A stretch of DNA of 64,000 nt from the NCBI RefSeq assembly GCF_024171735.1, contig NZ_JAMTCH010000004.1:310001-374000 (forward strand), written 5' to 3'. Below the pieces are notes generated by a model that had not been told where the DNA came from, ran no database searches, and saw only the letters and a program-made list of their open reading frames with translations. Positions 17,311 to 55,195 of this stretch are shown here, in pieces. The position numbers were made by a program, and so were the translations under genes. Origin of the DNA: Prauserella alba. Lineage in GTDB: Bacteria > Actinomycetota > Actinomycetes > Mycobacteriales > Pseudonocardiaceae. Numbering within the stretch: position 1 is the first letter of the stretch; every line of letters begins with the position of its first letter.

Positions 17311-17360
17311 CGCCAGCCGATATAGCTCAGGCATAGTTCGCACTCCCACCATTCCTCACG
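17311..17360 (+). promoter_or_regulatory. SARP-type promoter of the halogenase/radical SAM operon
   Basis: The heptamers ATAGCTC (17322-17328) and ATAGTTC (17333-17339) form a direct repeat with 11-bp period. The second is followed, after exactly 8 bases, by ACCATT (17348-17353), a plausible -10 hexamer. This is the geometry known for SARP-activated promoters. The 50-bp block is about 41/50 identical to 22850-22899 in front of the NRPS operon. A SARP gene lies in the same cluster at 53399. Confidence 0.75.
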
Positions 17361-17418
17361 TTGGGGCTTCGTGGCTGCCCAACCAGACGGCCGCACACAT
17401 GCGTGAGGAAGGGATGGC

Positions 17419-18744
17419 GTGGGCAACAACGAACCATGGCTGAGCCGGATCGTCGACAGCCTGGACCGATCACGGGCGGGACTTCTCACCGAGCACGGCC
17501 GCCTGCCCTGGCCGGAGCTCGTGGCACGGGCGCGGCGCACGGCCGCCGAACTGTCCGAGCTGCCACGTGGCGTGGTCCTGGCGCCCGACAGCGGTCCCGG
17601 CGCTCTAGTCGCTGTCCTGGCGGCCGGCCTCGCGGAACCCGCACGGTCCTGGGTGATCGGCGACCCGGTGCAATGGGGATCCGCGCCGGCCTCGCCGACC
17701 GCTGCACCCGTCTCGGCCCACCCGCGGGCGACGCCACCACCCGATGTGGACGGTGTCACCTACGCCACGGCGACCTCGGGCACGACCGGACAACCCCGAC
17801 TGCTGTTCGGGCGACCCGAGACCCTCGCCGACACGGTGGACCTCTACGTGACCGGTATTCCCGAGTACGCCGAGGCCGAGCTGTTCGCCGCATGCACGGC
17901 GTCCGAGTTCGCGACCGACCTCGCGACGGTACTGCACCGGATCGTGCTGCCGGCCGTCGTGCTCGGCCGGGACCTGATGTTGTTCCGGCCCCACCAATGG
18001 CACGCGGCGGCCGCGGCCCTCGACGGACGGCCGGCCGTGTGTCTCACCCCGCCCCCGTTGGCTCTGCTCGGCAGCAGGGCCGCCTCCGCCCGCCACAACT
18101 ACTCGGGTGTCCGATTCGTCCCCGAGGGTGGCGGACTGACCACCGAACGAGCCGAACGGGTCGCCGCCGGGTTCGCGGGCTGTTCGTTCCTCACCCTGTT
18201 CGGCACCACCGAAACCGGGGTGCTCACGGTGACGCGCGAGGTCCGCGACGACGACTACATCGGGGAACCGCTTCCGGGAAAGCCGGTGTGGCTGAGCGAT
18301 CCCGGCGACGACGGCGAACGGAACCACGGCGTGGGTACGATGTGGACGGCCGGACCCGACACGAGGATCGCCACCACCGACGGACTTCTCTCCCGTTCCG
18401 CCGAGGGTGCGGTCGGCAGCGGGTACCTCGCCCGTCCCGGCGCCGACGGCGGTTTCGTGCTCGCCGGCAAAGCCGACGAGCGGGTCGACGTCGACGGCGT
18501 CAGCATCGACCCCGGCGACCTGCTCGCCAGCCTCCGCGACATCCGCGGCCTCGTCGATGCTTCCGTGTCGGTCGACCGTTCGGGACCGGCCGGTCGCATC
18601 ACGATAGTCGCCGTCGGCGATGTCACCGAAGGCCAGATCCGCAGGCGATTGGCCGCCCGCACCGCCGCCCTCGTGCCGCACGAGGTCGTGTGCCACCCGG
18701 CGCAGGAACTCTCCCACAGCCAACGAGGAAAGGTGCTGCGATGA
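17419..18744 (+). CDS. AMP-dependent synthetase/ligase, short stand-alone adenylation enzyme
   Basis: 441 residues, shorter than usual NRPS adenylation domains. The P-loop appears as ATATSGTTGQPRL, with Arg where Lys is usual. The A5 region is LTLFGTTETGVLTVT, the A7/A8 hinge region contains LAGKADERVDVDGVSIDPGDL, and the C-terminus SQRGKVLR provides the A10 lysine. It should adenylate a carboxylic or amino acid, but the substrate cannot be predicted. GAGGAAGGG precedes the GTG start. It is the first gene of an operon with a B12 radical SAM enzyme (ATGA overlap), a halogenase and a flavin reductase, so it may activate the modified aromatic acid, or act on a carrier protein encoded elsewhere (inference). 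Confidence 0.82.
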   Translation: MGNNEPWLSRIVDSLDRSRAGLLTEHGRLPWPELVARARRTAAELSELPRGVVLAPDSGPGALVAVLAAGLAEPARSWVIGDPVQWGSAPASPTAAPVSAHPRATPPPDVDGVTYATATSGTTGQPRLLFGRPETLADTVDLYVTGIPEYAEAELFAACTASEFATDLATVLHRIVLPAVVLGRDLMLFRPHQWHAAAAALDGRPAVCLTPPPLALLGSRAASARHNYSGVRFVPEGGGLTTERAERVAAGFAGCSFLTLFGTTETGVLTVTREVRDDDYIGEPLPGKPVWLSDPGDDGERNHGVGTMWTAGPDTRIATTDGLLSRSAEGAVGSGYLARPGADGGFVLAGKADERVDVDGVSIDPGDLLASLRDIRGLVDASVSVDRSGPAGRITIVAVGDVTEGQIRRRLAARTAALVPHEVVCHPAQELSHSQRGKVLR

Positions 18745-20489
18745 GCGACGATCTGGTGGTTCTGGTCAATCCGAACAAGGTGTATCCACCGATCGCACCG
18801 TACGCGCTCGACGTGCTCACGACGTCGTTGGAGCACGCGGGATTCGCCGTCGACGTGGTCGACCTGACGTTCCGCAGGGACGAATGGGACATCGCGCTCA
18901 AGGAGTACTTCGCCGAGCGGGAACCGCTGCTCGTCGGAGTAACGGTCCGCAACACCGACACCGTTTACGCCTACGAACAGCGTCCGTTCGTCAATGAGCA
19001 CAAAGAGATCATCGACGCGATCAAGCAGCTGACCGAGGCCCCGATCGTCGGGGGCGGGATCGGTTTCTCCACCATGCCGTTCGCCCTGGTCGACTACTTC
19101 GGTATCGACTTCGGCGTCAAAGGCCCCGGCGAACACACGCTGTGCGAGCTGGCCACCGCATTGCGGGCGGGCCGGAGCAACGAGGCGGCAGCCGGAGCCG
19201 TTCCCGGAATCCTGCACAACAAGGGCGGCGGACGGGTCGTCCGCACCCTCCCCGACCACCTGGTGCTGTCCACCGATACCGCCCCGGGCAACGCGGCCGA
19301 GGACCGGGAAAGCGGGCGGTACGAGAGCCGAGCATGGCAGGCCGAGACCGCGGCCGCGTACCGCAGGCATTCCGAGGTTCCCGACCGCGTCGACAATCTC
19401 GCCTACTACCGGTCGGGCGGGCTCGGCAGCATTCTGACGAAGAACGGGTGCGTCTACCGGTGCACGCACTGCGTCGAGCCCGACGCGAAGGGCACGCGGT
19501 TCGCGCGCAGAGACGTCTCCGCGGTCGTCGACGAGATGGAGTCGTTGACCGACCAGGGAATCCACGATCTGCACACCACCGACAGCGAGTTCAACCTGGC
19601 GATCAACAACAGCAAACAGGTACTGCGCGAGATCGCAGCGCGGAAGCACCGCGATCCCGGTTCCTCACTGCACCGGCTCCGGCTGTGGGTCTACTGCCAA
19701 CCGGCGCCGTTCGACGCGGAGTTCGCCGAACTACTGGCCGAAGCCGGCTGTGTCGGCGTCAACGTCGGTGCCGATCACGTTCGTGCCGACCTGCTCCACC
19801 GGTGGAAGGTCACCGACAGAGGCGGCACCTACTACACCTTCGCCGACACCGAGAACCTCGTCGAACTCTGCAAGGCCAACGGAATGGCCACCATGGTCGA
19901 GGCATTGTTCGGCATGCCCGGCGAAACACTCGGCACCATGGCCGACTGCATCGACCGGTTCATGGCACTCGACGCCACCGTCACCGGATTCAGCCTCGGC
20001 CTGCGCCTCTTCCCCTACACCGAGCTGGGCATCTCTCTCGCGGAGGAATGCGACGGCGTACGCAGCGCACCGGGTCTGCAGTCGAACAACGCGACCGAGC
20101 CGATCGTGCTGACACCGCTGCGCAACTGCTCGGGCCCCGTCGAGTACGAGCGCCAGTTCATGTTCGACGAGAACGGCGACTTCCGCCTGGTCTCGTACTT
20201 CTCCCCCGACCTTCCCGAAGACCCCGAGACGATCGGTTCGCCTTCGGGGCGCTGGTACCGGTCACTGCAGTTCCTCTGGGACTACGTACCCGAATCCGAG
20301 CTGTACCGGGTGATGCTGCCGACCGTCGCCGGAATCAGCAACCACGACAACAACTACGCCGACAACCCGTTCCTCACCAGCCTGGTGGGGCTCGGTTACA
20401 CCGGGGCGTTCTGGGCGCACTGGCGGGAGCGGGAGAGCATCATGGCCGCCGCGAAGGACGTCGGCCTGCTCGCCGAGGCGCACGCCTGA
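18741..20489 (+). CDS. B12-binding radical SAM enzyme, possible tryptophan methyltransferase (TsrM-like)
   Basis: 582 residues. The N-terminal half is a cobalamin-binding Rossmann domain (DLVVLVNPNKVYPPIAPYALDVL, then PIVGGGIGFS and FGVKGPGEHTLCEL), without an obvious DxHxxG base-off motif, as in TsrM. The radical SAM cluster motif CVYRCTHC (C237, C241, C244) opens the barrel, followed by VNVGADHVRADLL and EALFGMPGET. Class B enzymes of this layout methylate unactivated carbons; TsrM makes 2-methyltryptophan. The next gene encodes a tryptophan-type halogenase, which favours an indole substrate, but other C-methylations or rearrangements are possible. Its start overlaps the AMP-ligase stop. 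Confidence 0.85.
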   Translation: MSDDLVVLVNPNKVYPPIAPYALDVLTTSLEHAGFAVDVVDLTFRRDEWDIALKEYFAEREPLLVGVTVRNTDTVYAYEQRPFVNEHKEIIDAIKQLTEAPIVGGGIGFSTMPFALVDYFGIDFGVKGPGEHTLCELATALRAGRSNEAAAGAVPGILHNKGGGRVVRTLPDHLVLSTDTAPGNAAEDRESGRYESRAWQAETAAAYRRHSEVPDRVDNLAYYRSGGLGSILTKNGCVYRCTHCVEPDAKGTRFARRDVSAVVDEMESLTDQGIHDLHTTDSEFNLAINNSKQVLREIAARKHRDPGSSLHRLRLWVYCQPAPFDAEFAELLAEAGCVGVNVGADHVRADLLHRWKVTDRGGTYYTFADTENLVELCKANGMATMVEALFGMPGETLGTMADCIDRFMALDATVTGFSLGLRLFPYTELGISLAEECDGVRSAPGLQSNNATEPIVLTPLRNCSGPVEYERQFMFDENGDFRLVSYFSPDLPEDPETIGSPSGRWYRSLQFLWDYVPESELYRVMLPTVAGISNHDNNYADNPFLTSLVGLGYTGAFWAHWRERESIMAAAKDVGLLAEAHA

Positions 20490-20614: not shown

Positions 20615-22180
20615 GTGAGCATGAAGAATCCTGACCAGGTCGTCATCGTCGGGGGCGGCACGGCCGGATGGATGACCGCTTCCTATTTGAAGGCGGCGTT
20701 CGGGGACCGGTTGTCCGTCACCCTCGTCGAGTCGGACAAGATCGGCACAATCGGGGTGGGCGAAGCCACCTTCAGCGACATCCGGCACTTCTTCGAGTTC
20801 CTCGACCTGAAAGAGGAAGACTGGATGCCCGCCTGCAACGCCACCTACAAGCTGGCGGTGCGGTTCGAGGACTGGCGCGAACCGGGACATCACTTCTACC
20901 ACCCGTTCGAACAACTGTCCTCGGTCAATGGTTTCCCGCTGACCGACTGGTGGCTCCACAGTGGTCCGACCGAGCGTTTCGACAAGGATTGCTACGTGAT
21001 GGCGTCCCTGTGCGACGCCGGCCGCAGCCCGCGGTACCTCGGCGGTTCGCTGCTCGAACACGACGCCGTCGACAGCGACGACGAGCCCGTCGGCATGACG
21101 ATGTCGGAATATCAAGGCAGGACACAGTTCCCGTATGCCTACCACTTCGAGGCCGCGCTGCTGGCGAAGTACCTCACCGGGTACTCGACCGACCGCGGCG
21201 TCCGGCACGTGATCGACGAGGTGCAGGACGTCCTCCTCGACGAACGAGGCTGGATCGACCACATCGTCACGAAGGACCACGGTGAGATCAGCGGTGACCT
21301 CTTCATCGACTGCACCGGCTTCCGCGGCCTGCTCCTGAACAAGACCCTCGACGTGCCGTTCGTCTCCTATCAGGACACCCTGCCCAACGACCGGGCCGTG
21401 GCACTGCAGGTTCCGCTCGACATGCAGCAACGCGGAATCCGGCCCTGCACCACGGCGACCGCCCAGGACGCGGGCTGGATCTGGACCATTCCACTGTTCG
21501 GCCGGATCGGCACGGGGTACGTCTACGCGGGCGACTACTGCACGGCCGACGAGGCGGAACGGCGGCTGCGGGAGTTCGTCGGCCCCGAGGCCGAGGACGT
21601 CGAGGCTAATCACATCCGGATGCGCATCGGCCGCAGCGAACGGTCGTGGAAGAACAACTGCGTGGCCGTCGGACTGGCCAGTGGTTTCGTCGAACCGCTC
21701 GAATCGACCGGGATCTTCTTCATCCACCATGCTGTCGAGCAGCTCGTGAAGTACTTCCCCGGCGGCGACTGGCAGCCGAAACTGCGGGAGGGGTACAACG
21801 CGGCCGTCGCCAACGTGATGGACGGGGTACGCGAGTTCCTCGCCCTGCATTATCGCGGAGCCGCCCGCAACGACACCCCGTACTGGAAGGACGCCAAGAC
21901 ACGACCCGTTCCCGACGCGCTGGCCGAGCGCTTCGAGCGGTGGCAGGTCCAGCTACCGGACAGCGAGAGCGTCTTCCCCTACTACCACGGCCTGCCACCG
22001 TTCTCCTACATGTGCATTCTGCTGGGAACCGGTGGGCTCCGCCCTTCCCCTTCACCTGCGCTGGCGCTCACCGACGACACCGCGGTGCGCAAGGAGTTCG
22101 CGGCCATCAGGGACAAGGCGCGGTCACTCGTCGACACCTTGCCGAGTCACTACGAGTACCTGGCGGCGATGCGCACATGA
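20615..22180 (+). CDS. Flavin-dependent tryptophan halogenase-type enzyme
   Basis: 521 residues. It has the FAD motif VIVGGGTAGWMTASYL, VGEATFSDI, the halogenase hallmark GWIWTIP (287-293), the catalytic lysine in ATYKLAVRFEDW at residue 79 (the position of Lys79 in PrnA/RebH), and the acidic partner in EPLESTGIFF (E363), which corresponds to Glu346. It should form a lysine chloramine or HOCl from FADH2, oxygen and chloride and halogenate a free aromatic substrate, most likely tryptophan; regiochemistry cannot be called. FADH2 would come from the reductase encoded 70 bases downstream. GTG 20615 is followed by an ATG at 20621 that could also be the start. Confidence 0.93.
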   Translation: MSMKNPDQVVIVGGGTAGWMTASYLKAAFGDRLSVTLVESDKIGTIGVGEATFSDIRHFFEFLDLKEEDWMPACNATYKLAVRFEDWREPGHHFYHPFEQLSSVNGFPLTDWWLHSGPTERFDKDCYVMASLCDAGRSPRYLGGSLLEHDAVDSDDEPVGMTMSEYQGRTQFPYAYHFEAALLAKYLTGYSTDRGVRHVIDEVQDVLLDERGWIDHIVTKDHGEISGDLFIDCTGFRGLLLNKTLDVPFVSYQDTLPNDRAVALQVPLDMQQRGIRPCTTATAQDAGWIWTIPLFGRIGTGYVYAGDYCTADEAERRLREFVGPEAEDVEANHIRMRIGRSERSWKNNCVAVGLASGFVEPLESTGIFFIHHAVEQLVKYFPGGDWQPKLREGYNAAVANVMDGVREFLALHYRGAARNDTPYWKDAKTRPVPDALAERFERWQVQLPDSESVFPYYHGLPPFSYMCILLGTGGLRPSPSPALALTDDTAVRKEFAAIRDKARSLVDTLPSHYEYLAAMRT

Positions 22181-22250: not shown

Positions 22251-22757
22251 ATGACCGAGTCGGTCGCTGGAACCGCTGACACGGCGGGCGGGTTCCGCAC
22301 GATGATGGCGGGGTTCCCGACCGGAGTGGCGGTCGTGGCGTCGACCGATCCGGCGGGCAGGCCGTGGGGTATGACGTGCTCGTCGCTGTGCAGCGTGTCG
22401 ATGACGCCTCCGGCGCTGCTCGTCAGCCTCCGGGAGGGCAGCCCCACCCTGTCCGCGGTGATCGAACGTGGCCGCTTCACGGTGAACCTCCTGCACGAGC
22501 GTGCGCGTACCACCGCGGAGCTGTTCGCATCCGGCAGGCGGGAGCGGTTCGACCTCGTCGATTGGGACGTGGGTACCGCGGGCCCACATCTCACGGCCGA
22601 CAGCCACGCCATCGCCGACTGCCGAGTGACCGCTGCGCATCCGGTCGCCGACCACGTCGTCGTGTACGGCGAGGTCGACGACGTCCTGGGCGTCCGGGAC
22701 GGCCGGCCACTGCTCTACGGCATGCGACGGTACGGCCGTTGGGACGACATCGGGTGA
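22251..22757 (+). CDS. Flavin reductase (halogenase partner)
   Basis: 168 residues of the flavin reductase-like, split-barrel FMN-binding family: FRTMMAGFPTGVAVVAS, WGMTCSSLCSVSMTPPALLVSL, FTVNLLHERARTTAELFAS and HHVV-type strands near the end (ADHVVVYGEVDDVL). It would reduce FAD with NADH for the flavin-dependent halogenases at 20615 and 37902. GAGGAGG lies before the ATG. It closes the first operon of the cluster and is followed by the control region of the NRPS operon. Confidence 0.92.
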   Translation: MTESVAGTADTAGGFRTMMAGFPTGVAVVASTDPAGRPWGMTCSSLCSVSMTPPALLVSLREGSPTLSAVIERGRFTVNLLHERARTTAELFASGRRERFDLVDWDVGTAGPHLTADSHAIADCRVTAAHPVADHVVVYGEVDDVLGVRDGRPLLYGMRRYGRWDDIG

Positions 22758-22841: not shown

Positions 22842-22849
22842 TCGGTTCC

Positions 22850-22899
22850 CGCCGGCCGATATAGCTCACGCATAGTCCGATCTCGCACCATTTCCGACG
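22850..22899 (+). promoter_or_regulatory. SARP-type promoter of the NRPS operon
   Basis: ATAGCTC (22861-22867) and ATAGTCC (22872-22878) are spaced 11 bp apart, and ACCATT (22887-22892) follows after exactly 8 bases, as in the copy at 17311-17360. The predicted transcription start falls near 22899-22901, about 145 bases before the NRPS start. Confidence 0.75.
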
Positions 22900-23044: not shown

Positions 23045-26000
23045 ATGGCCACCGGTAACGAGCATCGACAACCACTGTCCCACGCCCAGAAGGCGGTCTG
23101 GTTCGCCCACCAGCAGGATCCGACCCAACGTCGCTACACCTGCGCGGAGTATCTGACCCTGACCGGAGAACTCGACGTGCCGGTGCTGACGCGGGCATGG
23201 GCCCGGTTGTGCGACGAGGCAGATGCGCTGCGGGTGCTCCGGATCGAGGAGACGGCCGCGGGCGAGCTGGCCCAGGTGGTCAGCGATCGCGCTCCGTCGC
23301 TGCACGAGATCGACGTCGGCGCCGTGGCCGATCCGACGGCTGCGGCGCACGAGTGGATGCACCGCGATCTCGACACGCCGATCGACACGGCCACGGGTCC
23401 GATGGTGCTCGCGGCGCTGATACGGATCGCCGACGATCGGCACCTGCTCTACCTGCGAATGCACCACGCCGTGACCGACGGTCACAGCATGCCGCTGCTG
23501 CACGAGTCGCTGGCAGCGCGGTACACGAGCCTGCTGCTGGCGGAACCGCAGCCGGCCCGGCTCGGGCAGCTCACCGACATGACCGCCAAGGACGCGGCGT
23601 ACCGCGCAGGTGCGGACTTCGAACTCGACCGCAGGTACTGGGCCGGACGGTTCGCCGACCGCCCCGACCCGATGCGGGTTCCGGCCGTCATGACGGGCCG
23701 GCAGGACGAGGCGGTCCGGGCCCGGCAGGTGTCCCGGCTGTCCGACATGGACTCCGGAAGACTCGTCGACGCCGCGGCCGAAGCCGGCACCACGTGGCAG
23801 TTCCTGGTGATCGGCGCGACCGCGGGGTATCTGCGGCGCGTCACCGGCAGGCGCGACGTCGTGCTGGGGTTGACCAACAGCGGCCGGCGGGGCGTGGCAG
23901 CACGCCGGACCCCCGGCATGGCCGCCAACACCGTGCCGCTGCGGCTCGACGTCGCAGGCGGGGCAACGCTGCGCGGGCTGTTGCCGTCGGTGGCAGCCGA
24001 GATCGCCGACGTGCAACGGCACGAACGCTTCCGTTACGACGACCTGTGCCGCGCGCTGGACGTTCCCGGCACGGGCGAAGGCCCGCTGGGGCCGATTCTC
24101 AACTTCATGCCCTACCCCGGGCGGTTCCGGTTCGGTGACGCCACGGCGACCGCGCGCAACCTGGCATCGGGCCCCAGTATCGACCTCACCTTCGGGGTGA
24201 CGGGTTCGGCCGTCGACGGCATCGACCTGTCCGTCGACGCGAATCCCGCACTGCACCCCGGGGAACGGCTGGACGGCGAACTGCACCGCTGGGCCGGATT
24301 CGTCCGCGCCGTGATCGACGAGCCCGACCGCGAGTTCCGGTCCGTCGACGTGCTCACCGCGGCGGAACGAGCGGCGAGTCTCTGTGCACCGGGCGATGCC
24401 GCGGTCGCTTCCGACGGGCGAACCGTCGTGGACCTCGTTCGCGAGGTGGCACGGCACCGGCCCGACGACACGGCCGTGTCCGGCGGCGGGAGCCGGCTGA
24501 CCTACGGCGGGCTCGACGCGGAATCGGCCTCGCTGGCCGCGCGACTCGTCGAGCAGGGCGTACAGCGGGAGGACGTCGTCGGCATCGCGATGACCCGCTC
24601 GCCGAACCTCATCGTGGCCATGCTCGCCGTACTCCGTGCGGGCGGGTGCTACCTCCCCCTCGACCTGACCTACCCGCGCGAGCGTGTCCGATCGATGCTG
24701 GCCGACAGCACGGCACGCTGCGTGCTGGTCTCGGACGTCGAGGCGGCCGCCGCGGTGCTGCCTCCGGAGGCGGTCGTGATCGACGTGAACGACCGGCCCG
24801 GCACGGCCGCGCTCACCGATCCGGTCGCCGTCCACGGCACCTCGGCCGCCAACGTGTTCTTCACCTCCGGGTCCACGGGAACGCCCAAGGGCGTCGTCGC
24901 GCTGCACCAGGGGCTGGCGAACCTCGCACTCGACAACCGTGCCCGGTTCGGGCTCGATGCCGACAGCACCGTGTTGCAGTACGTGTCCCCCGCGTTCGAC
25001 GCGGCGAGCGAGGACATCTGGCCTGCCCTGGTCGCGGGTGCCCGGCTGGTGCTGCCGCCCGAGCCGGCGAACCTCCCGCTGTCGGACCTGCTCGAGGTGT
25101 TGCGTACGGAACGGATCACCCACGCGGCGCTGCCGCCCACCGTGCTGCGCCAGCTGCCTTCCGACGGGCTGCCCGATCTCGCGCACCTGGTGGTCGGCGG
25201 CGAGACACCGGAGGCCGCGGTCGTCGACCGATGGGCCCGTGGTCGCCGGATGCTGAACATGTACGGCCCCACCGAGGTCTGCTGCACCGCAACCGGCGGT
25301 GCGATCCGCCCAGGCGAGCCGGTGACCATAGGCCGCCCGATCGACAACGTCGCGGTGTACCTCCTCGACGACGACCTCCAGCCGGTGGTGCCGGGCACCG
25401 TGGGTGAGTTGTACGTCGCGGGCCGCAGCGTCTCCCGTGGCTACCTCGACCGGCCAGCCGCAACCGCGGACGTCTTCCTCCCCTGTCCGTTCGCGGAACC
25501 GGGAAGCCGGATGTACCGCACCGGCGACCTGGCGTATCGGCGTGACGACGGCGCGCTCCAGTACCTGGGACGTGCGGACCACCAGGTCAAGATCCGCGGC
25601 TTCCGGGTGGAGCTCGGCGAGGTCGAAGCGGCGCTGGCCGCCGACTCCCGCGTCGCAGGCGCGATCGTGACCGCCCGGGAGACGGCGGCCGGTGGGAAGC
25701 AGCTCCTCGGGTACGTGATGCGCAGGCCGGGAGCCCGCGTCGACGGCGAGCAGCTGCGACACGGACTCGGCGAGGTCGTCCCCGAGCACATGGTTCCGTC
25801 GGCCGTCCTCGTGCTGGACGCGTTTCCGTTGCAGCCGAACGGAAAGGTCGACCGGGAGTCACTTCCCGAACCGCCGGCTGGACGGGCCACCGCGCCGCAA
25901 CCGCCCACCACCGCCGACGAGGTGGCCCTGTGCACGATCTTCGCCGAGATCCTCGGCGTGGCCGAGATCGGCGTGCACGACTCGTTCTTCCGGCACGGCG

Positions 26001-28933: not shown

Positions 28934-29886
28934 GCAACGACCTCGCACTCACACTGACCGACGCCGAACGGGACGGGATCGCTGCCATTGCGCGAGACCT
29001 GGTAGCAGCACCTCCCCGCGTGATCGACGACCCGTCGTGGGTGGACGACTGCCGGTCGGCGGCGGCGGGACTGCCGGTCCGGCTTCGCCGCCGACTACAG
29101 GATTTCCGTCACGATCCCGGTGACTCGGGAGCGCTGCTCGTGCGCAACCTGCCCGGTACCGCCGACCGGCCGACGCCCGCCGAACCCAGCTCGGTCGAAC
29201 GCGAGGCCAGCGTCGGGTCCGCGGTGATCGGCCTGCTGTCGCTGCACCTCGGCGAGCTCATCGCCTATCGCAACGAGAAGTCCGGCGCCCTGGTGCAGAA
29301 CGTCGTACCCGTTCCGGGGCTGGAGGAGCAGCAGAGCAACGCGGGCAGCACCCGCCTCGCGATGCACGTGGAGAACGCCTTCCACCCGCGCCGCCCCGAT
29401 TACGTCTGCCTGTTCTGCATCCGCGCGGACCACGAGCGCGTCGCGGGGCTGCAGCTGTCCTGCATTCGCAGGGCCGTCGGCGCGCTGCCCGACGCGATCC
29501 GCGCGGTGCTCGCGGAGCCGCGCTTCACCACCCAGGCGCCGCCGTCGTTCGGCGGCGATGGCGCCGACGCGCCCCGGCACGCGGTCCTGACCGGGGAGCC
29601 GACGGATCCCGACATCCAGGTCGACTTCCACGCCACGTCCGGTGGCGACGACGAGGCGAAGAACGCGCTGGAGGCGCTGTTCGAGGCCGTGACGGGCGCG
29701 GCGGAGACGCTGCCGCTGCAACCGGGGGACCTCGCGCTGGTCGACAACCGCGTGACGTTGCACGGCCGCACCGTGTTCACGCCGCGCTACGACGGCAACG
29801 ACCGCTGGCTGCATCGCACGTTCGTGCACCTCGACCACCGGCGTTCGCGTGCCCTGCGCACCCGGGCCGGCCACGTTCTCGCATGA
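28930..29886 (+). CDS. Fe(II)/2-oxoglutarate oxygenase, AsnO/VioC-like amino acid hydroxylase
   Basis: 318 residues of the clavaminate-synthase-like group. The HxE iron motif is HVENAFH, followed by the family stretch [20 protein letters not shown]. The distal histidine is in VTLHGRTVF, and an Arg follows for 2-oxoglutarate. AsnO, VioC and relatives hydroxylate the beta carbon of free asparagine, arginine or similar residues before NRPS loading. The gene overlaps the NRPS stop as ATGA. Three adenylation domains in this cluster look Asn/Asp-like, so asparagine is the first candidate substrate (inference). Confidence 0.9.
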
Positions 29887-29911
29887 GTTGCCCGACCACC
29901 GGAGGAGAAAG

Positions 29912-39245: not shown

Positions 39246-39286
39246 CCGAGAAGGACACGAGAAACCCCGACAAGATGGAGGTTCTG

Positions 39287-39499
39287 ATGGCGAACGAATC
39301 CAGCGGCGAAACGTACCGGGTCGTCTACAACGACGAAGAGCAGTACTCGGTCTGGTGGGCCGGGCGTGAGACGCCGGAGGGCTGGCACCACGAGGGAACC
39401 GAGGGAACCAGGGAGGAGTGCCTCGCCCACATCGAGAAGATCTGGACGGACATGCGGCCGTTGAGCCTACGGAAACGACTGGCCGAACAGCAGGCCTGA
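39287..39499 (+). CDS. MbtH-like protein
   Basis: 70 residues from ATG 39287, with GGAGG five bases upstream (an ATG at 39275 is also in frame). It has the MbtH signature: YNDEEQYSVWW, then ETPEGWH and a C-terminal EECLAHIEKIWTDMRP helix. The Pro after the first Trp is replaced by Trp-Ala. MbtH proteins bind and activate NRPS adenylation domains. It is the last gene of the plus-strand operon and probably serves some of the five NRPS adenylation domains. Confidence 0.95.
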   Translation: MANESSGETYRVVYNDEEQYSVWWAGRETPEGWHHEGTEGTREECLAHIEKIWTDMRPLSLRKRLAEQQA

Positions 39500-41005: not shown

Positions 41006-41012
41006 ACCACGT

Positions 41013-41034: not shown

Positions 41035-41048
41035 AATGACATCACCCA

Positions 41049-41084: not shown

Positions 41085-41224
41085 CAGCAAAGTGCCCTCC
41101 CGTCGACCTGCCCCGCCGGCGAGGCGAAAAGCCCCCGAGACCCGCAAACCGTGACGGGTCGAACGATAGCCCCACCGGCGAGCCGAAGAACGCCCGTCGC
41201 CGCAACGGCCGGAATGCGGGAAGG

Positions 41225-42478: not shown

Positions 42479-42533
42479 GGCACGCACCTTCCGGTAGCGA
42501 CCATCGTGCGGTGGCCGGCTCTGCCTGCCGCCA

Positions 42534-48500: not shown

Positions 48501-49097
48501 GAGCTCCGGCAGTGCGGCCTCGGTGCCGTCCTTCGCCGCCGTGTACAGCGCCCACAGATCGGACAGTGCGAGCCGCGACGACCACGCGTCGCAGGCGATG
48601 TGATGGAACACGACCACGAGGACGTGTTCGGAATCGGTGACCTCCACCAACGTCGCCCTCGCGGGCCATTGGCGGTCGAGGTCGAACGGCGTCGCGGTCT
48701 GCGCCGCGACGAGGTCGTTCACGCGGGTGCCGCGCCCGGATTCGGGCGAGTCCGCGACCGAAACCATCGACAGCCCGCCGGACACCGGTTCGTCGATCAC
48801 CTGCCGCGGCAGGCCGTCGTCGAGCACGTGCCTCGTCCGCAGGATCTCGTGCCGTGCCACGAGCGCGTCCCACGCCTGTGCCAGCGCCCTCGCATCCAGC
48901 TCACCGCGGATCCGCAGGGCGAAAGGAACCAGGTACTCGACGCTGTCGTCGACGAGCTGATCGAGGAACCACATCTGTTCCTGGCCGAACGACATCGGCA
49001 ACGGGCCGTCGCGCTCGACTCTGTCGATTCCCGCCGTTGCTGCGCGGCGCCCTCGACGCCGGTGCAGCCGGCTCTCCACATTGGCAGTCCGGGCCAT
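42534..49097 (-). CDS. NRPS, C-A-PCP-I-A-PCP with interface-like domain
   Basis: 2,187 residues from ATG 49097 (GGAGAG four bases before; ATG 49109 is also in frame). Domains: condensation (about 20-470, variant motif HHIACDA at 165-171); adenylation (about 500-1000, code D-V-P-K-V-G-E-V-G-K); carrier (GGDSIR, Ser1028); a condensation-fold domain (about 1065-1500) whose active site reads ECHPVQEGW (1230-1238) in place of HHxxxDG; adenylation (about 1530-2080, code D-L-T-K-V-G-E-V-G-K, one residue from a known Asn code); carrier (GGDSIR, Ser2128). The degenerate domain resembles the interface domains that recruit SyrP-type hydroxylases to carrier-bound Asp. No thioesterase domain. An Ala/Asp/Gly repeat lies inside the last A domain. 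Confidence 0.93.
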   Translation of the reverse strand: MARTANVESRLHRRRGRRAATAGIDRVERDGPLPMSFGQEQMWFLDQLVDDSVEYLVPFALRIRGELDARALAQAWDALVARHEILRTRHVLDDGLPRQVIDEPVSGGLSMVSVADSPESGRGTRVNDLVAAQTATPFDLDRQWPARATLVEVTDSEHVLVVVFHHIACDAWSSRLALSDLWALYTAAKDGTEAALPELAVQYADFASWQRQQLTGGEEERQLAYWQEVLSGTPQLDLPTDFPRPPVRGYAGGEVEFTLPADVGAAVAGLARDAGTTPFAVLLTAFQAMLARYTGTADVPVGTIVSGRTRPELQHLVGNGINTVVIRTHWDTSVTFRELLRKVRGSVLDAFDHSAVPFASVVDKVQPQRDASRTPLYQTVFTWHEAKASPAEPAEGLVVEPIEAGGGVARCDVELQVGQAEGGGLDARLIYATDLFERDTVERMAAHLTRLLSGAVSEPDTPLHAVAMLGETELASLTVPAEPMPDGALADHALGRFDRQVTRTPDAAAVVTDEGTVTFAELGTRVNGIAHRLREAGAGEGDVVGILHERGVGLLASMLASWRVGAAYLALDPELPQQRWGWLLTDSAARVVVTDGESDRNAALGEVFDGTILSACEVTDGAGPEFPPPRTCDPEALAYVVYTSGSTGRPKGVGTTHRGLLTHLNWVIDNYIGDHEGGAPLFSTVAGDVVVPTLFAPLLAGRPVHMLPQDIDLSELGPRLAVAKPFAFIKLTPGHLEMLSHQLDPADIDGLAGTVVTGGDVLLDSVARQWDDWLGDGRLVNEYGPTEITVGNSTYLPGSGSRREVVPIGKPIPHTSMYVLDETLRPAAPGVIGEICVGGDGLARGYLNRPSQTADTFVPDPYGPPGARLYRTGDLGRVVRGGDVEFAGRVDDQVKIRGHRVELGEVEGLLSGRSEVAECRVVLRGERDQPTLVAYAVGADADERELSAWLTERLPEYMVPQVVLLDRIPLTANGKLDVDSLPERTGPVVDFVAPRNAIEQRIADVWSEALQLERVGVHDGFFDVGGDSIRAVAVVGALRHAGHDLTVADVFANGTVARLAELLDGRGGLVEDRGVAPFALIGEADRAAVPGGVEDAYPLSRNQVGMIFEMLADEQNPYHCTTTFWIRDGAPFSLDAMTESARLLSRRHEVLRTSLHLSGFSVPMQLVHTDARMAVSMRDMRGMSSDEIDLAVKEHVAHERANLFDMTVPGLMRFVAFPTDHDGYWLSITECHPVQEGWGYHSMVMELLNCYGALRRGEEPPPYEKPEVRFADFVAGELASIESEEDAGYWRDIVTEYVPFALPEEWHDRTALLSKHQAMADWRDLKPRLREAAANAGVSMKCVMVSAFTKVLSQLTDEDAFHFGLITDARPERLGADTVYGMYLNTLPFAVRRPSGTWRDLLRATFDREVELWPHRRYPYPEIVRTADHRRRLVEVMFNYHDFNQVDKELVAERVGLDDSPTDFGLTVSTRVDLVMVTADYRYLGPEQAELIARAFRRVLEAIAEDIDTDATISVLPEPHRRWLLDQAQEPADPAGRAEPVRHALEAFDRQVERTPQATAVRCGDEELTFAELDRWACRIAERLRRHGFTPGSVAGVLVGRDLNLLPSLLATWKAGGAYVPLDAALPADRLSYALADSGACCVLAAPALAAAVPATFDGSTVLVAADSREADAETADAGAADAGAADAGAADAGAADAGAFDAGASESRAFDAGAAGGEARVPEQAASPEGGDGAAYVIYTSGSTGRPKGVRVSHRSLANYLSWAVADYVAAGDGGAPLLSTVASDLPVTTLFAPLLAGQPVHVLSDDLDLSELGAALRAGGPYSFIKLTPGHLEVLGQQLDTPVAETIVVGGEALHRPVVRRWAERLCEGRVINEYGLTETTVGNSVAVVGDGERPVVPIGKPIPNTSIHVLDARLELLPRGAVGEVCVAGEGLATGYENRPAMTAERFVPNPYGPPGSRLYRTGDLGRVLADGSVDLLGRRDGQVKIRGYRVELGEIESVLGEHPLIAEARVLLRTGSGDDRRLVAYVVPESGDEAVAAEPVRAWLADRLPEYMVPAVVVQLDRLPLTANGKLDTDALPETGEEEPGDSYIPPEGPLEQRIAEIWGEVLGKRVGAADEFGALGGDSIRAVALTGALTNAGYSVSVRELFTHPTVSRLARLLADRHGHTPAPKLDEGAPAAAELDH
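44001..44075. repeat. Five tandem 15-bp units inside the last A domain
   Basis: Five copies of TCCGGCGTCTGCTGC, the last with one change, encode repeated Ala-Asp-Ala-Gly-Ala. Degenerate units flank the array. It sits in the loop just before the TSGSTG motif and is probably a variable-length linker. Confidence 0.9.
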
Positions 49098-49132
49098 TCG
49101 GCTCTCCATTCCGCTACCGATCTGCGACGTGG

Positions 49133-49894
49133 TCAACGGCTTTCGAGGACATCGACCAGTACGGTGAACAACTCGTCGGGTGGGGCGTTGACGTAGTAGT
49201 GGTCGCCGGGCACGACGTGTTCGTCCAGCCCGCCGATGGTGTGTGCCGACCACCCGCGCATGTCCTCGAGCCCGCAGCCGGGGTCGTCCGCCGCGGCGAC
49301 GACGGTGATCGGACAGGTGAGTGGCGGACCTTCGACATAGGAGTACGAATCGGCCATGCGCAGGTCGCTCCGCAGCGCGGGAACAGTGAGCCGCCACAGC
49401 TCGTCGCTGTCGATCACCGCCGCGGACCGGGTACCCGCCCTGGCCAGGTAACGGCGGATGTCCGCGTCACTGCGCACGTCGTCGCGACGCGGCCGGCACT
49501 GGGCGGGCGGCGTGCGTGCCGACGCGATCAGTCGGGTGAGCGGCGTCGGGAATCTGGGCCTGAGTCTCCTCGCCACCTCGAAGGCGACGGTGGCACCGAG
49601 GCTGTGGCCGAAGAAGGCGACGGGACGGTCGAACAACGGCTCGATGTCGGCGGCCACCAGCGACGCCATGGTCCCGATGTCGGCGATCGGTTCCTCGTCG
49701 CCGCGATCCTGCCTTCCCGCGTACTGCACGGCCACCAGTTCGACCGAACGGGGCATTCTGGACGCCCAGTCGTGGAAGACGCTCGCGGCACCGCCCGCCT
49801 GCGGGAAACAGAGGAGCCTCAGGTCCGCCGCCGGTCTCGGCCGGAACACCCGGCACCAGTCGGACCGCCGGGACACCGATGTTCCTGCGGTCAT
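49133..49894 (-). CDS. Type II thioesterase
   Basis: 253 residues from ATG 49894, forming ATGA with the upstream hydroxylase stop. An alpha/beta hydrolase with LRLLCFPQAGGAASVFHDW, the nucleophile in FFGHSLGATVAFEVAR, the Asp region VVAAADDPGC, and the catalytic His in VVPGDHYYVN. These are the hallmarks of external thioesterases that clear misprimed or stalled carrier proteins. It is the only thioesterase in the cluster, so a role in product release is also possible. It lies directly upstream of the NRPS gene at 49097. Confidence 0.93.
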   Translation of the reverse strand: MTAGTSVSRRSDWCRVFRPRPAADLRLLCFPQAGGAASVFHDWASRMPRSVELVAVQYAGRQDRGDEEPIADIGTMASLVAADIEPLFDRPVAFFGHSLGATVAFEVARRLRPRFPTPLTRLIASARTPPAQCRPRRDDVRSDADIRRYLARAGTRSAAVIDSDELWRLTVPALRSDLRMADSYSYVEGPPLTCPITVVAAADDPGCGLEDMRGWSAHTIGGLDEHVVPGDHYYVNAPPDELFTVLVDVLESR

Positions 49895-50883
49895 CCGTCC
49901 GTAACCTTCAGATAGTCCGAGACGTGCGCCTCGCACATGGCCACCGCGATGCTGCGCGGACCCTCGAACGGTTCGCGGCCGTGGGCGGTCATCATGTTGT
50001 CCACGACGAGCACGTCACCTCGCTGCCAGTCGAACCGGCGCCATTCGGCCCGGTAGCAGTCCCGCAGGTGCGCCACCACCTCGTCCGGGATCGGAGCACC
50101 GTCGCCGTAGTAGGTGTTGATCGGCAGACCGTCCTGCCCGAACATCGCCAGCAGTCCCTCACGCACGTCGTCCTGGTGTGTGCTGATGTGGAAGAAGGTG
50201 ATGTGGTTGAACCAGACGTCCTCGCCCGTGTCAGGGTGTTCGTGGATCGGCCGCCGCACCGCGGTCGTGCGGAGATGGTCGGAGCCGAACCACTCGGTGC
50301 CGATACCGCGGTCGGCGCAGTACCGGTCGACCTCCGCCGGGTCGCTGGTCCCGTAGACCTCCGGCCAGGGAATGCCCACCTTGCCGCGGTAGTTACGCGC
50401 CAGCATCCAGCCCCGGCGGGTGAACTCCTCACGCACGTCCGGGTCGATGGTCTGCACCACGCGCCGCACGTCCGCCAGCGGGGTCGCGCCGCGCGACGAC
50501 GGCTCACGGTCGCAGTAGAAATACAGCAAGCGCGGCCACGCGGCCTGGTAGGAGCTCTCGTTGTGCAGGAAGATCTCCTCGTCGGCCGGATAGTCGGTCG
50601 AGGTGTACACGTTGCCCTTGATCGAGTGGCGCGGCGAGGAACGCTCGTTGTAGGTCATCGGCTCACCGGACATGGCCCGCACCGCGGATTCGAAGGCCGC
50701 GACGTCGGGCACGTCGAACCCCCGGAACAGCAGTGCACCGTGTGTGACGAGCAGCCTGCGCAGCCGGCCCCGCTCGGCTCCGATCAGTTCCTCGATACCG
50801 GCACCGGCCTGTTCGTGCGTCACGACGTAAGGCAGGGTCCGTTCTGCAGCGACAGTTTCCAGCAACTCGAGTTCTCCCATCAT
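49891..50883 (-). CDS. TauD/SyrP-like Fe(II)/2-oxoglutarate hydroxylase, copy 2
   Basis: 330 residues from ATG 50883, overlapping the upstream hydroxylase stop (ATGA). The iron motif is FLHNESSYQAAWPRLLYFYC, the form seen in SyrP-type beta-hydroxylases acting on carrier-bound aspartate, with the distal His in MMTAHGREPFEGPRSIAVAM. ASSRGATPLADVRRV-like residues follow the first motif. It is about the same length as copy 1 but clearly diverged, so the two probably act on different residues or positions. It is paired genetically with an NRPS that has an interface-like domain. Confidence 0.9.
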   Translation of the reverse strand: MMGELELLETVAAERTLPYVVTHEQAGAGIEELIGAERGRLRRLLVTHGALLFRGFDVPDVAAFESAVRAMSGEPMTYNERSSPRHSIKGNVYTSTDYPADEEIFLHNESSYQAAWPRLLYFYCDREPSSRGATPLADVRRVVQTIDPDVREEFTRRGWMLARNYRGKVGIPWPEVYGTSDPAEVDRYCADRGIGTEWFGSDHLRTTAVRRPIHEHPDTGEDVWFNHITFFHISTHQDDVREGLLAMFGQDGLPINTYYGDGAPIPDEVVAHLRDCYRAEWRRFDWQRGDVLVVDNMMTAHGREPFEGPRSIAVAMCEAHVSDYLKVTDG

Positions 50884-51818
50884 CCCGCCATCGAGACCAG
50901 CACGCGGCGCTGACCGGTGAACGGTCGCCTGCCGTGGCCGACGAGCACGTTGTCGATCAGCATCAGATCCCCTGGCGACCATTCGACGTCGACGGCCTGG
51001 GCCAACCCGCGCTCGCGCACCTGCGTCACGTACTCGACCGGGATGGCGCCGCCGTCCGCGAACACGACCGACTGAGGCATGTCCTCTTCGGACATGATCG
51101 CGGCGAGCGCTACCGCGGTCTCGTCACCGAGGCCCGCGGCATGCCACTGGTCCGCCTGGTTGAACCACACCTCCTGGCCCGTTCGCTCGTCGACGACCGT
51201 CGAAGGACCCGGCTGTTCCACACGCAGCCCGCCGTCCTGTCGCCAGTGCCACTCCGCACCGGTCGCGCCGAGGAACTGTTCGACCTCGTCGCGGCTCTCG
51301 GTCTCGAACGTGGCCTGCCAGCTCTTGCCGAGTCCGACACCACCGTGCAGGTTCTGCCGGTACCGCAGCCCACCGGCGAATGCTTCCCTGACGTCCGCAT
51401 CGAGCGCGGCGAGCCAGGCCGCACCGTTCACCACGGGCGTCGCTCCGCCGCTCGCCGGCGCCTGCTCGCAGTAGAACAACAGCCTGCTGGGATACCGCGC
51501 GGCGTAGGAGAGTTCGTTGTGCATCGAGATCGTGTACTCGGCCGGGTACTCGGTCGAGGTGTAGATGTTGTCGCCGACCTTGGTTCGGGGCGAGTTGCCG
51601 TGCCGGTACGACCATCGCGTGGGCAGCAACATGTCGACCATCGCCTCGAAGTCGACTCGGCCGACGTCGAATCCCCGCCAGACCAACGCCTTCCGTTCGA
51701 CGAGCATCGCCTCGATGTCGAGCGAACCAAGATGACCCTTCAGTCCGGCGGCGCTCGGTTCGACGTCGATCTCACGCGGGCGGAACACCGTCGGCGCCCA
51801 TGGCGCTGCAGTCGTCAT
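50880..51818 (-). CDS. TauD/SyrP-like Fe(II)/2-oxoglutarate hydroxylase, copy 1
   Basis: 312 residues from ATG 51818, with an AGAGGAG upstream. The iron motif is SMHNELSYAARYPSRLLFYCEQAPASGGATPV, and the distal His and 2-oxoglutarate-binding Arg are in VLVGHGRRPFTGQRRVLVSM. The layout matches SyrP-like aspartyl or asparaginyl beta-hydroxylases working on carrier-bound residues. It is the first gene of the minus-strand operon (two hydroxylases, thioesterase, NRPS, exporter). The operon promoter should lie in 51819-52000. Confidence 0.9.
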   Translation of the reverse strand: MTTAAPWAPTVFRPREIDVEPSAAGLKGHLGSLDIEAMLVERKALVWRGFDVGRVDFEAMVDMLLPTRWSYRHGNSPRTKVGDNIYTSTEYPAEYTISMHNELSYAARYPSRLLFYCEQAPASGGATPVVNGAAWLAALDADVREAFAGGLRYRQNLHGGVGLGKSWQATFETESRDEVEQFLGATGAEWHWRQDGGLRVEQPGPSTVVDERTGQEVWFNQADQWHAAGLGDETAVALAAIMSEEDMPQSVVFADGGAIPVEYVTQVRERGLAQAVDVEWSPGDLMLIDNVLVGHGRRPFTGQRRVLVSMAG

Positions 51819-51935
51819 CGCCTCGAATCTCCTCTGGGACGGGTCGTTGTTCTCCGCGTGGCGGCGCCCGGAGGGCTGGGCACACCCGCGAGGACCGTTT
51901 CGTGGACGGGCTGGGCCGAACGATGCAAGAACGAG

Positions 51936-53315: not shown

Positions 53316-53344
53316 TTGCGGGACATTTCGTCCACTGCTAGCCT
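53316..53344 (+). promoter_or_regulatory. Promoter of the SARP gene
   Basis: TTGCGG (53316-53321), a 17-base spacer and TAGCCT (53339-53344) form a plausible housekeeping-sigma promoter about 55 bases before the start codon. A CCCCTAGGGG palindrome lies upstream at 53290-53299. Confidence 0.5.
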
Positions 53345-53398
53345 CCGACGTGATCAACCGCGCATTCATCAATTGCAGTGAATCGACTGGGGGATTCC

Positions 53399-55195
53399 AT
53401 GCGCTTTCAGGTTCTCGGTCCGGTTAGCGCTTGGTCCGAAGGGGTTCCCATCAAACTCCGTGGGCCGAAGATGCGCACAGTCCTGGCTTCGCTGTTGCTG
53501 GCGCACGGACGCGTCGTCTCCGACAGCAGACTGATGGGAAACCTGTGGGACGACCAGTTACCGACCACCACGCAAGCACAGATCCAGACCTATGCGTCGA
53601 GGCTCCGGGGGCTGCTCGGCACCGCCGTCAGCATCGAACGTCAGCCTCCGGGATATCGACTGCGTTTCACCTCCGACAGTCAAACCCAGTTCGACCTCGT
53701 CGAGTTCGAGCAGTTGTCCCGCCAGGGCCGGGAGGCGCTGGCCGACGGGCGACACCAGGACGCGTCGAATCTGTTGCGGGCGGCGTTGACGAAGTGGAAC
53801 GGCCAGGCCCTCGCCGGCGTAACACCCCATCTCGCCACCGTCGAACAGCCGGGGCTCGAGGAGTCACGCCTGCTCACCGTGGAGAAGTGCATCGACGCGG
53901 AACTGGCACTGGGCAAGCACGAAGCGTTGATCGCCGAACTGACCGCACTGGTCGCCGCGGAACCCACCCGCGAGCGGCCGGCGATGCAGCTGATGACGGG
54001 ACTCCACCGATGCGGTCGCACGGCGGACGCGCTCGCCGTCTATCGGAGTTTCCGGAACAACCTGATCGATTCGCTCGGAATCGACCCTTCCGTCGACATG
54101 CAGCGGTTGCACCAGTCGATCCTCACGTCCGAGCCCACCATCCCCACGACCGCACCCGCCACGGTGCCGACGCCCCGCTTGCCCCCGTCGACGCGTTCCC
54201 TGCAGCACGAACCGAGTGATTTCGTCGGCCGGGACGACGAGCTCACCACCACCTATCACGTGCTGGCCGACTCGGCCGCCCAGGACGGCCCCGCGACCAT
54301 GTGCGTCGTCAACGGCCCGAGCGGCGTCGGAAAGACGACACTCGCACTGCGAACCGGACGACTGCTGCGGAACCGGTTCCCCGATCACCAGCTGCTGCTC
54401 CAGCTCGGCGGCAAGACCACCAACCCGCCCACCCCCGTCGACGCCCTCGGCACTGCGCTGAACGCACTGGGACTGTCCGCCCGTCAGCAGCCGGACACGC
54501 TCGACGGTCGGATCGCGGCTTACCGGAGTATCCTCGCGGAGGCGAGGTCCCTCGTAGTACTCGACGACGCCGCGAACGAACAGCAGGTGCGGGCGCTCGA
54601 CCCCGGATCGGCAGGTTGCGGCGTACTCGTCACGAGTCGTTTCGCACTCGCCACATTGGAGGGAACGACTCGGCTCCCGTTGGACACGTTCTCGCCCGAC
54701 GAATCGGTCGAGCTGTTGGCGAAGATCGCGGGCTCCGCCCGGGTGACCGCCGACCGGGATGCCGCCCTACGGATCACCCAGCTGTGCGGGCACCTGCCTG
54801 TGGCGGTGCGGATCTGCGGCGCCATCCTCGCGGCGCGAGCACACTGGAGCCTGGCACAGCTCGCCGACCGGCTCGCCGACCCGGAGCGAAGACTCGACGA
54901 GCTCCGAATCGGCGACCTCGACATCCGAAGCTTCCTCGCCCCCGCCCACGATCGGCTACCCGATCATGTCGGCGACGCACTGGACGTACTGGCCACTCTC
55001 GGAACCCGGCCGTTCACCTGCGCGACCGCCGCCGGCCTGCTCAACCGGTCGGTATCGGCGACGCTCGACGTCATCGACGAGCTCATCGCCGCGCACCTTC
55101 TCACCGTTCATCACGCGGCGCCGGGCCACTACCGGATTCCCGAGCTGGTGGTGGCGCTCGCCGCAAGCCGGCCCACGCTCCAGCGGACCAGCTAG
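53399..55195 (+). CDS. SARP-family regulator with NB-ARC ATPase domain (AfsR-like)
   Basis: 598 residues from ATG 53399, with GGGGGA just before. An N-terminal OmpR-type winged helix (FQVLGPVSAWSEGVPIKLRGPKMRTVLASLLLAHGRVV) is followed by the bacterial transcriptional activator domain (to about 245). An NB-ARC-type ATPase begins near residue 280 with Walker A GPSGVGKTT and a later LVVLDDA. No TPR tail is present, so it is shorter than AfsR. Codon 54 is TTA (53558-53560), so translation probably depends on the rare leucyl tRNA of bldA type. It is the likely activator of the SARP-type promoters at 17311 and 22850. Confidence 0.93.
   Translation: MRFQVLGPVSAWSEGVPIKLRGPKMRTVLASLLLAHGRVVSDSRLMGNLWDDQLPTTTQAQIQTYASRLRGLLGTAVSIERQPPGYRLRFTSDSQTQFDLVEFEQLSRQGREALADGRHQDASNLLRAALTKWNGQALAGVTPHLATVEQPGLEESRLLTVEKCIDAELALGKHEALIAELTALVAAEPTRERPAMQLMTGLHRCGRTADALAVYRSFRNNLIDSLGIDPSVDMQRLHQSILTSEPTIPTTAPATVPTPRLPPSTRSLQHEPSDFVGRDDELTTTYHVLADSAAQDGPATMCVVNGPSGVGKTTLALRTGRLLRNRFPDHQLLLQLGGKTTNPPTPVDALGTALNALGLSARQQPDTLDGRIAAYRSILAEARSLVVLDDAANEQQVRALDPGSAGCGVLVTSRFALATLEGTTRLPLDTFSPDESVELLAKIAGSARVTADRDAALRITQLCGHLPVAVRICGAILAARAHWSLAQLADRLADPERRLDELRIGDLDIRSFLAPAHDRLPDHVGDALDVLATLGTRPFTCATAAGLLNRSVSATLDVIDELIAAHLLTVHHAAPGHYRIPELVVALAASRPTLQRTS

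Follow-up and report, generated by a model that had tools for sequence, protein, structure and literature searches.

The window analysed here is a 64,000-nucleotide stretch of the Prauserella alba genome (assembly GCF_024171735.1, contig NZ_JAMTCH010000004.1, positions 310,001 to 374,000), which contains a coherent nonribosomal peptide synthetase (NRPS) cluster spanning positions 17419-55195. The host belongs to the family Pseudonocardiaceae; its 5.6-Mb genome is rich in GC and is assembled in 11 contigs. The genes were re-called from codon-position GC content and family searches (Table 1), and protein families, domain order, adenylation pockets and co-occurrence across relatives were read from sequence. 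All parts listed in an earlier note on this DNA were found again. They include two flavin halogenases, a B12/radical SAM enzyme, three iron/2-oxoglutarate (Fe/2OG) proteins, in all of which an HxE motif is followed further on by a His, and a Streptomyces antibiotic regulatory protein (SARP). They also include the pyrrole cap genes (dehydrogenase, prolyl-type adenylation enzyme and peptidyl carrier protein, PCP) and five NRPS adenylation (A) domains, distributed among three proteins as one, two and two. With the stand-alone enzymes A0 and prolyl A, the adenylation enzymes of the cluster number seven. A0, the MbtH-like protein, the free thioesterase, the major facilitator superfamily (MFS) exporter and the absence of a thioesterase (TE) domain from the last NRPS had not been mentioned in the note. 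The remaining NRPS domains are abbreviated as C (condensation), T (thiolation) and E (epimerisation).

Table 1. Features of the cluster and its edge (positions in the 64,000-nucleotide window)
Feature	Position	Strand	Evidence and remarks
VTT/DedA-family membrane protein	16493..17245	+	Pfam VTT 52 bits; peripheral, membership uncertain
Promoter-region repeat, copy 1	17306..17360	+	Core CCGATATAGCTCAnGCATAGTnCG at 17317-17340; 82% identical 55-nt repeat
A0, stand-alone ANL adenylate-forming enzyme, thiopeptide type	17419..18744	+	AMP-binding 42 bits
TsrM, cobalamin radical-SAM tryptophan 2-C-methyltransferase	18741..20489	+	TIGR04428 978 bits, cut-off 500
Tryptophan halogenase, 6-Trp type	20621..22180	+	Trp_halogenase 460 bits; PDB 5hy5 1002 bits
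Flavin reductase for halogenases	22251..22757	+	Flavin_Reduct 119 bits
Promoter-region repeat, copy 2, upstream of NRPS1	22845..22899	+	Repeat comparison
NRPS1, C-A1-T-E-C	23045..28933	+	Pfam; TIGR01720 (NRPS-para261) stretch as in E domains; motifs; code
OG1, Fe/2OG hydroxylase, AsnO/clavaminate synthase clade	28930..29886	+	TauD; PDB 2og5 271 bits; HxE
NRPS2, A2-T-C-A3-T	29909..34906	+	Pfam, motifs, codes
Prolyl-PCP dehydrogenase	34896..36038	+	NCBIfam ProlPCPDhRedW 418, PigA 416 bits (both below cut-off)
Stand-alone prolyl adenylation enzyme	36038..37615	+	PDB 6o6e 468 bits; code DLMYCALVC
Stand-alone PCP	37612..37890	+	PP-binding 30.5 bits; Ser in GILDSL
Carrier-protein-dependent flavin halogenase (PltA/Mpy16/ChlB4 group)	37902..39245	+	PDB 7fco 756 bits; WxWxIP
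MbtH-like protein	39281..39499	+	PF03621 67 bits
MFS exporter	41225..42487	-	MFS_1 106 bits
NRPS3, C-A4-T-C*-A5-T, without TE	42534..49133	-	Pfam, motifs, codes
Free (type II-like) thioesterase	49133..49882	-	PF00975 151 bits; GHSLG
OG2, TauD-type Fe/2OG hydroxylase	49891..50886	-	157 bits; HxE (HNE)
OG3, TauD-type Fe/2OG hydroxylase	50880..51821	-	103 bits; HxE; 33% identical to OG2
SARP regulator (BTAD + NB-ARC)	53396..55195	+	BTAD 148 bits

The radical SAM protein, to which the earlier note had given no role, is by sequence tests a tryptophan C2-methyltransferase of the TsrM type. It exceeded the cut-off of the TsrM equivalog family and matched the solved TsrM structure, PDB 6wte, at 872 bits. 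Counted along the alignment, its R70, E283 and C237/C241/C244 correspond to Arg69, Glu273 and the CX3CX2C motif of the structure, the residues described for TsrM chemistry (PMC8992657). The adjoining gene encodes a tryptophan halogenase, whose best PDB match was the Trp 6-halogenase 5hy5, with the 5-halogenase 8fov following after two others at 804 bits; NCBIfam gave no match at E ≤ 1e-8. The motifs ATFSDI, HPFEQ, QGRTQ and YYHGLPPFS make up, with small variants, all four motifs of the 6-Trp group B2, for which the motif table gives QGKTQ/QGKSQ/QGAQ/QGTQ and YYHGLPPYS or near (PMC8269204). The enzyme is thus similar by its motifs (ATFSDI/HPFEQ/QGxTQ/YYHGLPP) to the Trp 6-halogenases SttH, Th-Hal, Tar14 and KtzR, but unlike them it is coupled to a Trp C2-methyltransferase. 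In this operon, TsrM would methylate tryptophan at C2 and the halogenase, with its flavin reductase, would chlorinate it, most likely at C6, in either order. TsrM and the adjoining 6-Trp-type halogenase predict 6-chloro-2-methyltryptophan, loaded by module 1 as a D residue. The single E domain found, in NRPS1, bears out the one D residue of the earlier note. Its Asn/Asp-like hydroxylated residues agree with the three Asn-like pockets among the five A domains and with the three Fe/2OG enzymes, but, given the TsrM identity of the radical SAM protein, the defining residue would be the modified tryptophan.

The genes for a pyrrolyl starter form a complete set in one operon: prolyl A, dehydrogenase, free carrier protein and halogenase. 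The set resembles the pyoluteorin/marinopyrrole-type starters (PltF, PltE, PltL, PltA; Mpy16), but in the window it would feed an NRPS and not a polyketide synthase (PKS), and its halogenase is nearest to ChlB4 of the chlorothricin cluster. The best PDB match of the prolyl A enzyme was an L-proline--carrier protein ligase (6o6e). The dehydrogenase matched 6cxt, named butyryl-CoA dehydrogenase, at 296 bits and then the L-prolyl-PCP dehydrogenase 5zw0 at 287 bits. The matches of the second halogenase were 7fco (ChlB4), 5buk (Mpy16; 685 bits) and 5dbj (PltA; 626 bits), and ChlB4, Mpy16 and PltA act on carrier-protein-bound aryl acids. The stand-alone A enzyme would activate proline for loading onto the free carrier protein, on which it would be oxidised to pyrrole-2-carbonyl and chlorinated.

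The specificity codes of the A domains were read by general code rules and not against a labelled reference set. The code of A1, DAEAVGMCT, describes a roomy pocket, as for an indole, and the A1 domains of the five related clusters described below (DA(E/G/A)A(V/L)GM) are likewise roomy. A2 (DAWQSGTIE) is presumably Gln-like, A3 (DLPKVAEVG) and A4 (DVPKVGEVG) Asn-like, and A5 (DLTKVGEVG) is taken to activate Asn. NRPS1 would join the pyrrole to the modified tryptophan and epimerise the latter, NRPS2 would extend the chain by one Gln-like and one Asn-like residue, and two further Asn-like residues would come from NRPS3; the substrates, the site of each hydroxylation, the order NRPS1-NRPS2-NRPS3 and the mode of release are those that we infer. 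In the C-domain tree, C4 groups with C3 (97/92), as expected if NRPS3 follows NRPS2. The second C domain of NRPS3, C* (about 44469-45848), has CHPVQEGW in place of HHxxxDG, keeping the second His and the Gly; a motif of this type was found by regular expression in six of eight relatives, and G121 and G122 gave no clear motif. A role of C* as a siderophore-type interface domain was considered. In the window and in the four relatives checked (G197, G272, G363 and G121), NRPS3 stops shortly after the final T domain, and the long NRPS of G013 and G281 ends in a further domain. As NRPS3 has no terminal TE, release would be left to the free thioesterase or another enzyme. We suppose that the thioesterase releases the chain and that the MFS protein exports it.

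The identity of residue 2 was also considered in the light of relatives. The cluster of G363 encodes SbnA (418 bits, cut-off 350), an SbnB-like protein (240 bits, below the cut-off of 327) and a carbamoyltransferase (126 bits), the 76-aa end of which matched nothing in the family search. PALP-family genes, SbnA-like by eye, occur in G122 and G013, and G122 also has a carbamoyltransferase-like gene, by eye. The genes of G363 and G122 hint at ureidoalanine or diaminopropionate in this position. In the window's own genome, SbnA was found only in a distant siderophore-type locus.

OG1 is predicted to be an AsnO-like asparagine beta-hydroxylase: its nearest structure is the asparagine oxygenase 2og5, with the next match at 166 bits, and the HxE...H residues are kept. 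The best PDB matches of OG2 were 9yut (116 bits) and At3g21360 (112 bits). The three Fe/2OG enzymes equal in number the three Asn-like A domains and may beta-hydroxylate up to three residues. These same features, three HxE enzymes beside three Asn-like A domains, could be read as the beta-hydroxy-Asn/Asp groups of a metallophore, in line with the metal chelation suggested in the earlier note. The exporter is weakly EntS-like (56 bits versus a cut-off of 324). However, the pockets look to be of the Asn and not the Asp type (Glu at 322), and the annotated cluster genes, the outer flanks being unannotated, include no siderophore receptor, ABC importer or reductase. Besides, a separate siderophore-type locus (C2:890000-930000, L143-L144), with two IucA/IucC proteins and relatives of SbnA and SbnB, lies in the same genome about 0.55 Mb from the cluster. 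A metallophore was set aside as the best reading for want of uptake genes among the annotated cluster genes; it appears quite improbable, and metal chelation is not favoured.

Searches for OG2 and the second halogenase covered 390 genomes of the family, the window's own included; as scoring was confined to the best few candidates in each genome, the counts are lower bounds. The core was found in at least five other genomes, G197 (an Amycolatopsis), G272, G363, G122 and G121, with 66-78% identity for OG2 and 81-88% for the second halogenase. All five clusters hold the dehydrogenase, prolyl A, carrier protein, both halogenases, reductase, NRPS1-3, OG1-3, thioesterase and MFS protein. An MbtH homologue was found in four of them and a SARP homologue in three (G197, G272 and G363; 55-73%); neither was seen in G122, where the fetched stretch began inside NRPS3, and no SARP was seen in G121. 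Three further genomes, G013, G281 and G392, carry only part of the core, and in the other six genomes of the window's genus no match to OG2 or the second halogenase was obtained at the thresholds used. The MFS homologue occurs in eight of ten relative regions (the five clusters, G013, G281 and G392). Such recurrence indicates that the cluster is not a chance assembly. It also shows that the cluster is not unique, since the same core is present in the five other Pseudonocardiaceae genomes.

The related clusters differ from the cluster in the window in the decoration of tryptophan. Only the window and G197 clusters include A0 and TsrM. The clusters of G272, G363, G122 and G121 share the pyrrole set, NRPS1-3, OG1-3, thioesterase, MFS protein and similar A2-A5 pockets, but have no TsrM or A0 in the cluster and, in some cases, contain the SbnA-like, SbnB-like or carbamoyltransferase genes mentioned above. 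The Trp halogenases of G272, G363 and G122 are 55-57% identical to that of the window and have 5-Trp motifs (ATFSTV in all three; HPFER in G272 and G363, the regular expression having missed the site in G122), and the best PDB match of the G272 enzyme is the Trp 5-halogenase 2wet (863 bits). The Trp halogenase of G121 (56% identity) lies outside the three in which motifs were read. Between the window and G272, the Trp halogenases are 55% identical versus 70-84% for six other core proteins, and those of G272 and G363 are 78% identical. This discordance indicates that the halogenase, unlike the rest of the core, has been replaced. TsrM with a 6-type halogenase is present in the window, G197 and G266, the halogenases being 74-83% identical among the three.

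Residue 239 of A1 follows the same division. It is Glu in the two TsrM clusters (window and G197, in the code of which the last position fell in an alignment gap) and Gly or Ala in six clusters without TsrM (G272, G363, G122, G121, G013 and G281), which fits an adaptation of the predicted A1 pocket to the methylated residue. Judging from these sequence comparisons, an assembly line that was otherwise inherited appears to have exchanged a 5-chlorination gene for a cassette for methylation and 6-chlorination, and its module-1 pocket to have changed accordingly. Such a line would be, to our knowledge, the first NRPS to use C2-methyltryptophan, and the change from Gly/Ala239 to Glu would have adapted its module-1 pocket to this residue.

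Two other loci with related genes were observed. In G266 (C5, L129-L130), a different NRPS locus encodes TsrM (71%), a 6-type Trp halogenase (75%), an AsnO-like protein (49%), MbtH and, by eye, acyl-chain genes; it is likely another user of chloro-methyl-tryptophan. In G007 (C10, L024-L025), TsrM (about 60%) lies less than 3 kb from another Trp halogenase, 38% identical to that of the window, and a flavin reductase, with NRPS genes further on.

The distribution of A0 hints at the source of the cassette. A0 was found in five of the 390 genomes (E ≤ 1e-60) and TsrM in 45 (E ≤ 1e-120), the window's own genome being counted. Four of the five A0 genes lie less than 10 kb from TsrM; the fifth belongs to G061, a genome in which no TsrM match was obtained, and adjoins a lantibiotic-dehydratase gene. 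Homologues of A0 (49-54%) are located beside lantibiotic-dehydratase genes in L032, L041/G186 (Amycolatopsis saalfeldensis) and G061, and in the first two of these the ligase (about 51-54%) and TsrM at equivalog level occur together, as in a thiostrepton-type thiopeptide cassette. Unlike such a cassette, the genes in the window stand in an NRPS cluster with a Trp halogenase, with no precursor of a ribosomally synthesised and post-translationally modified peptide and no further quinaldate gene recognised. The pairing is infrequent: 13 of the 15 named TsrM loci have no A0 homologue in the fetched flanks, and two have one. The TsrM tree placed the window and G197 as sisters in one clade with TsrM proteins of thiopeptide loci, the order of which is unresolved. 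The A0 of G197 no longer has the P-loop consensus or the A10 end with its Lys, so that the ligase step seems dispensable there; the window's A0 keeps the A10 Lys. A0 is presumed to be a leftover of the thiopeptide origin of the cassette. Besides the A0 homologue, the G061 locus (C1, L131-L132) has a lantibiotic dehydratase and a short ORF, Cys-rich and precursor-like, that ends in SCTTCICTCSCSS.

The operon of A0, TsrM, halogenase and reductase might instead be a separate pathway, for instance to an A0-activated chlorinated indolic or quinaldic acid, that merely neighbours the NRPS genes or supplies a second acyl group. The thiopeptide-type surroundings of the A0 homologues, the operon's own promoter region and the A10 Lys retained in the window's A0 are compatible with this. 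A parallel, by type of enzyme, can also be drawn with the thiopeptide adenylating enzyme NosI, which activates an indolic acid (PMC5585349). However, the A0 of G197 has lost its motifs, the block remains with the NRPS genes in that other genus, and a Trp halogenase is present in all five related clusters. Among the annotated cluster genes, none was recognised as an aminotransferase, a ring-opening oxygenase or a quinaldate acyl transferase. With no further quinaldate gene recognised, formation of quinaldate by the cluster was rejected.

The promoter regions also argue against a separate pathway, as the element before A0 is shared only with NRPS1. The 55-nt repeat precedes both genes. Its 24-bp core, located upstream of both plus-strand operons, has these two copies alone in the 5.6-Mb genome, even with up to three mismatches allowed, against 0 expected in shuffles of the window. 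This ties the TsrM operon and the NRPS operon together. An exact 17-base pattern of the core was not found in relatives: the six matching loci out of 142 all come from the window's own genome. The cluster is presumably under SARP control. On balance, a separate pathway is unlikely, and the reading in which the operon supplies module 1 is preferred.

It is probable that the locus is a SARP-linked NRPS cluster for a pyrrolyl pentapeptide with a modified tryptophan, and our best guess for the product is (chloro)pyrrole-2-carbonyl-D-[6-Cl-2-Me-Trp]-[Gln-like]-[Asn-like]x3 with up to three beta-hydroxyls. The gene content thus supports the halogenated, hydroxylated, pyrrole-capped short peptide predicted in the earlier note. 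The fuller proposal has about an even chance of being right. According to it, a TsrM and 6-halogenase cassette of thiopeptide ancestry was grafted onto the NRPS line in place of a 5-halogenase, so that D-6-chloro-2-methyltryptophan is incorporated into a pentapeptide that carries a chloropyrrolyl cap and is beta-hydroxylated at several residues.

Several observations weigh against these interpretations. The prolyl-PCP dehydrogenase fails the NCBIfam equivalog cut-offs of its best matches (650 for ProlPCPDhRedW and 500 for PigA). PltA-like halogenases, with 72-82% identity, are also found with PKS and beta-ketoacyl synthase III (KAS III) genes in G013, G265 and G101 (PKS/KAS III-like genes by Pfam in G013 and by eye in the others), where prolyl genes were not found in the fetched stretches. 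As ChlB4 is, moreover, the nearest PDB homologue of the second halogenase, pyrrole halogenation is assigned by context. The proposed assembly leaves no role for A0. The pattern at residue 239 is probably one event, because the window and G197 are sisters, and the absence of TsrM from G013 applies to the cluster only, as this genome has TsrM elsewhere. The A1 code matches no Trp code known to us, and a Glu at position 239 is unexpected in a pocket for an indole. C* groups with C2, which follows the E domain (100/97), but C* itself has no E domain before it. For OG2, the PDB contains no close homologue that is characterised.

The clusters of G013, G281 and G392 resemble that of the window in the PltA-group halogenase (81-82%), NRPS2, MFS protein and thioesterase, but include a further long NRPS with six A domains, and no prolyl A or dehydrogenase was found in the fetched stretches. 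In G013, the PKS and KAS III-like gene suggest another aryl cap, and the PltA/ChlB4-group halogenase beside a related NRPS2 suggests an aryl-cap swap between related peptide clusters.

No chloropyrrole/chlorotryptophan/hydroxyasparagine peptide and no 2-methyltryptophan NRPS product was found in the open-access literature searched, which lends slight support to the earlier statement that the product matched none that could be named. The enzyme types are all known, and their combination and the cassette swap are undescribed in that literature. There is a small but real chance that the product is known from a paper or database outside the search: clusters of this family occur in several genera, which makes it possible that one of the compounds has been isolated, and the search reached open-access papers but not most subscription papers or cluster databases. 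Against this stands the lack of any such peptide in the papers covered. Amycolatomycin is a cyclic hexapeptide with other residues, as far as the consulted part of its description goes (PMC8002008). Pachycephalamides and demiguisin were rejected, as the scaffold is not the same in the portion of the Nat Commun paper available. If the proposed structure is true, the peptide would have a new halogenated scaffold and contain a tryptophan building block not found in the NRPS products searched. It would also be a natural experiment in which the decoration of one residue was changed by a cassette swap and one retuned adenylation pocket, and pairs of related clusters (5-chloro versus 6-chloro-2-methyl) make A-domain specificity and cassette exchange directly testable.

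The remaining features of the region are peripheral. The Rfam scan of positions 14000-58000 gave no hits. The promoter and terminator scan of positions 39240-42600 found one strong terminator-like site after the MbtH gene (39530-39564; 2 found versus 1.2 expected). The DUF222 gene at 39737-41005 on the minus strand was rejected as a cluster member, with no homologue listed in the ten relative regions at E ≤ 1e-10; it is probably an insertion. The VTT/DedA gene has a 60% identical homologue at the edge of the G197 cluster and none in the other nine relative regions (E ≤ 1e-3), and its product could serve in self-protection.

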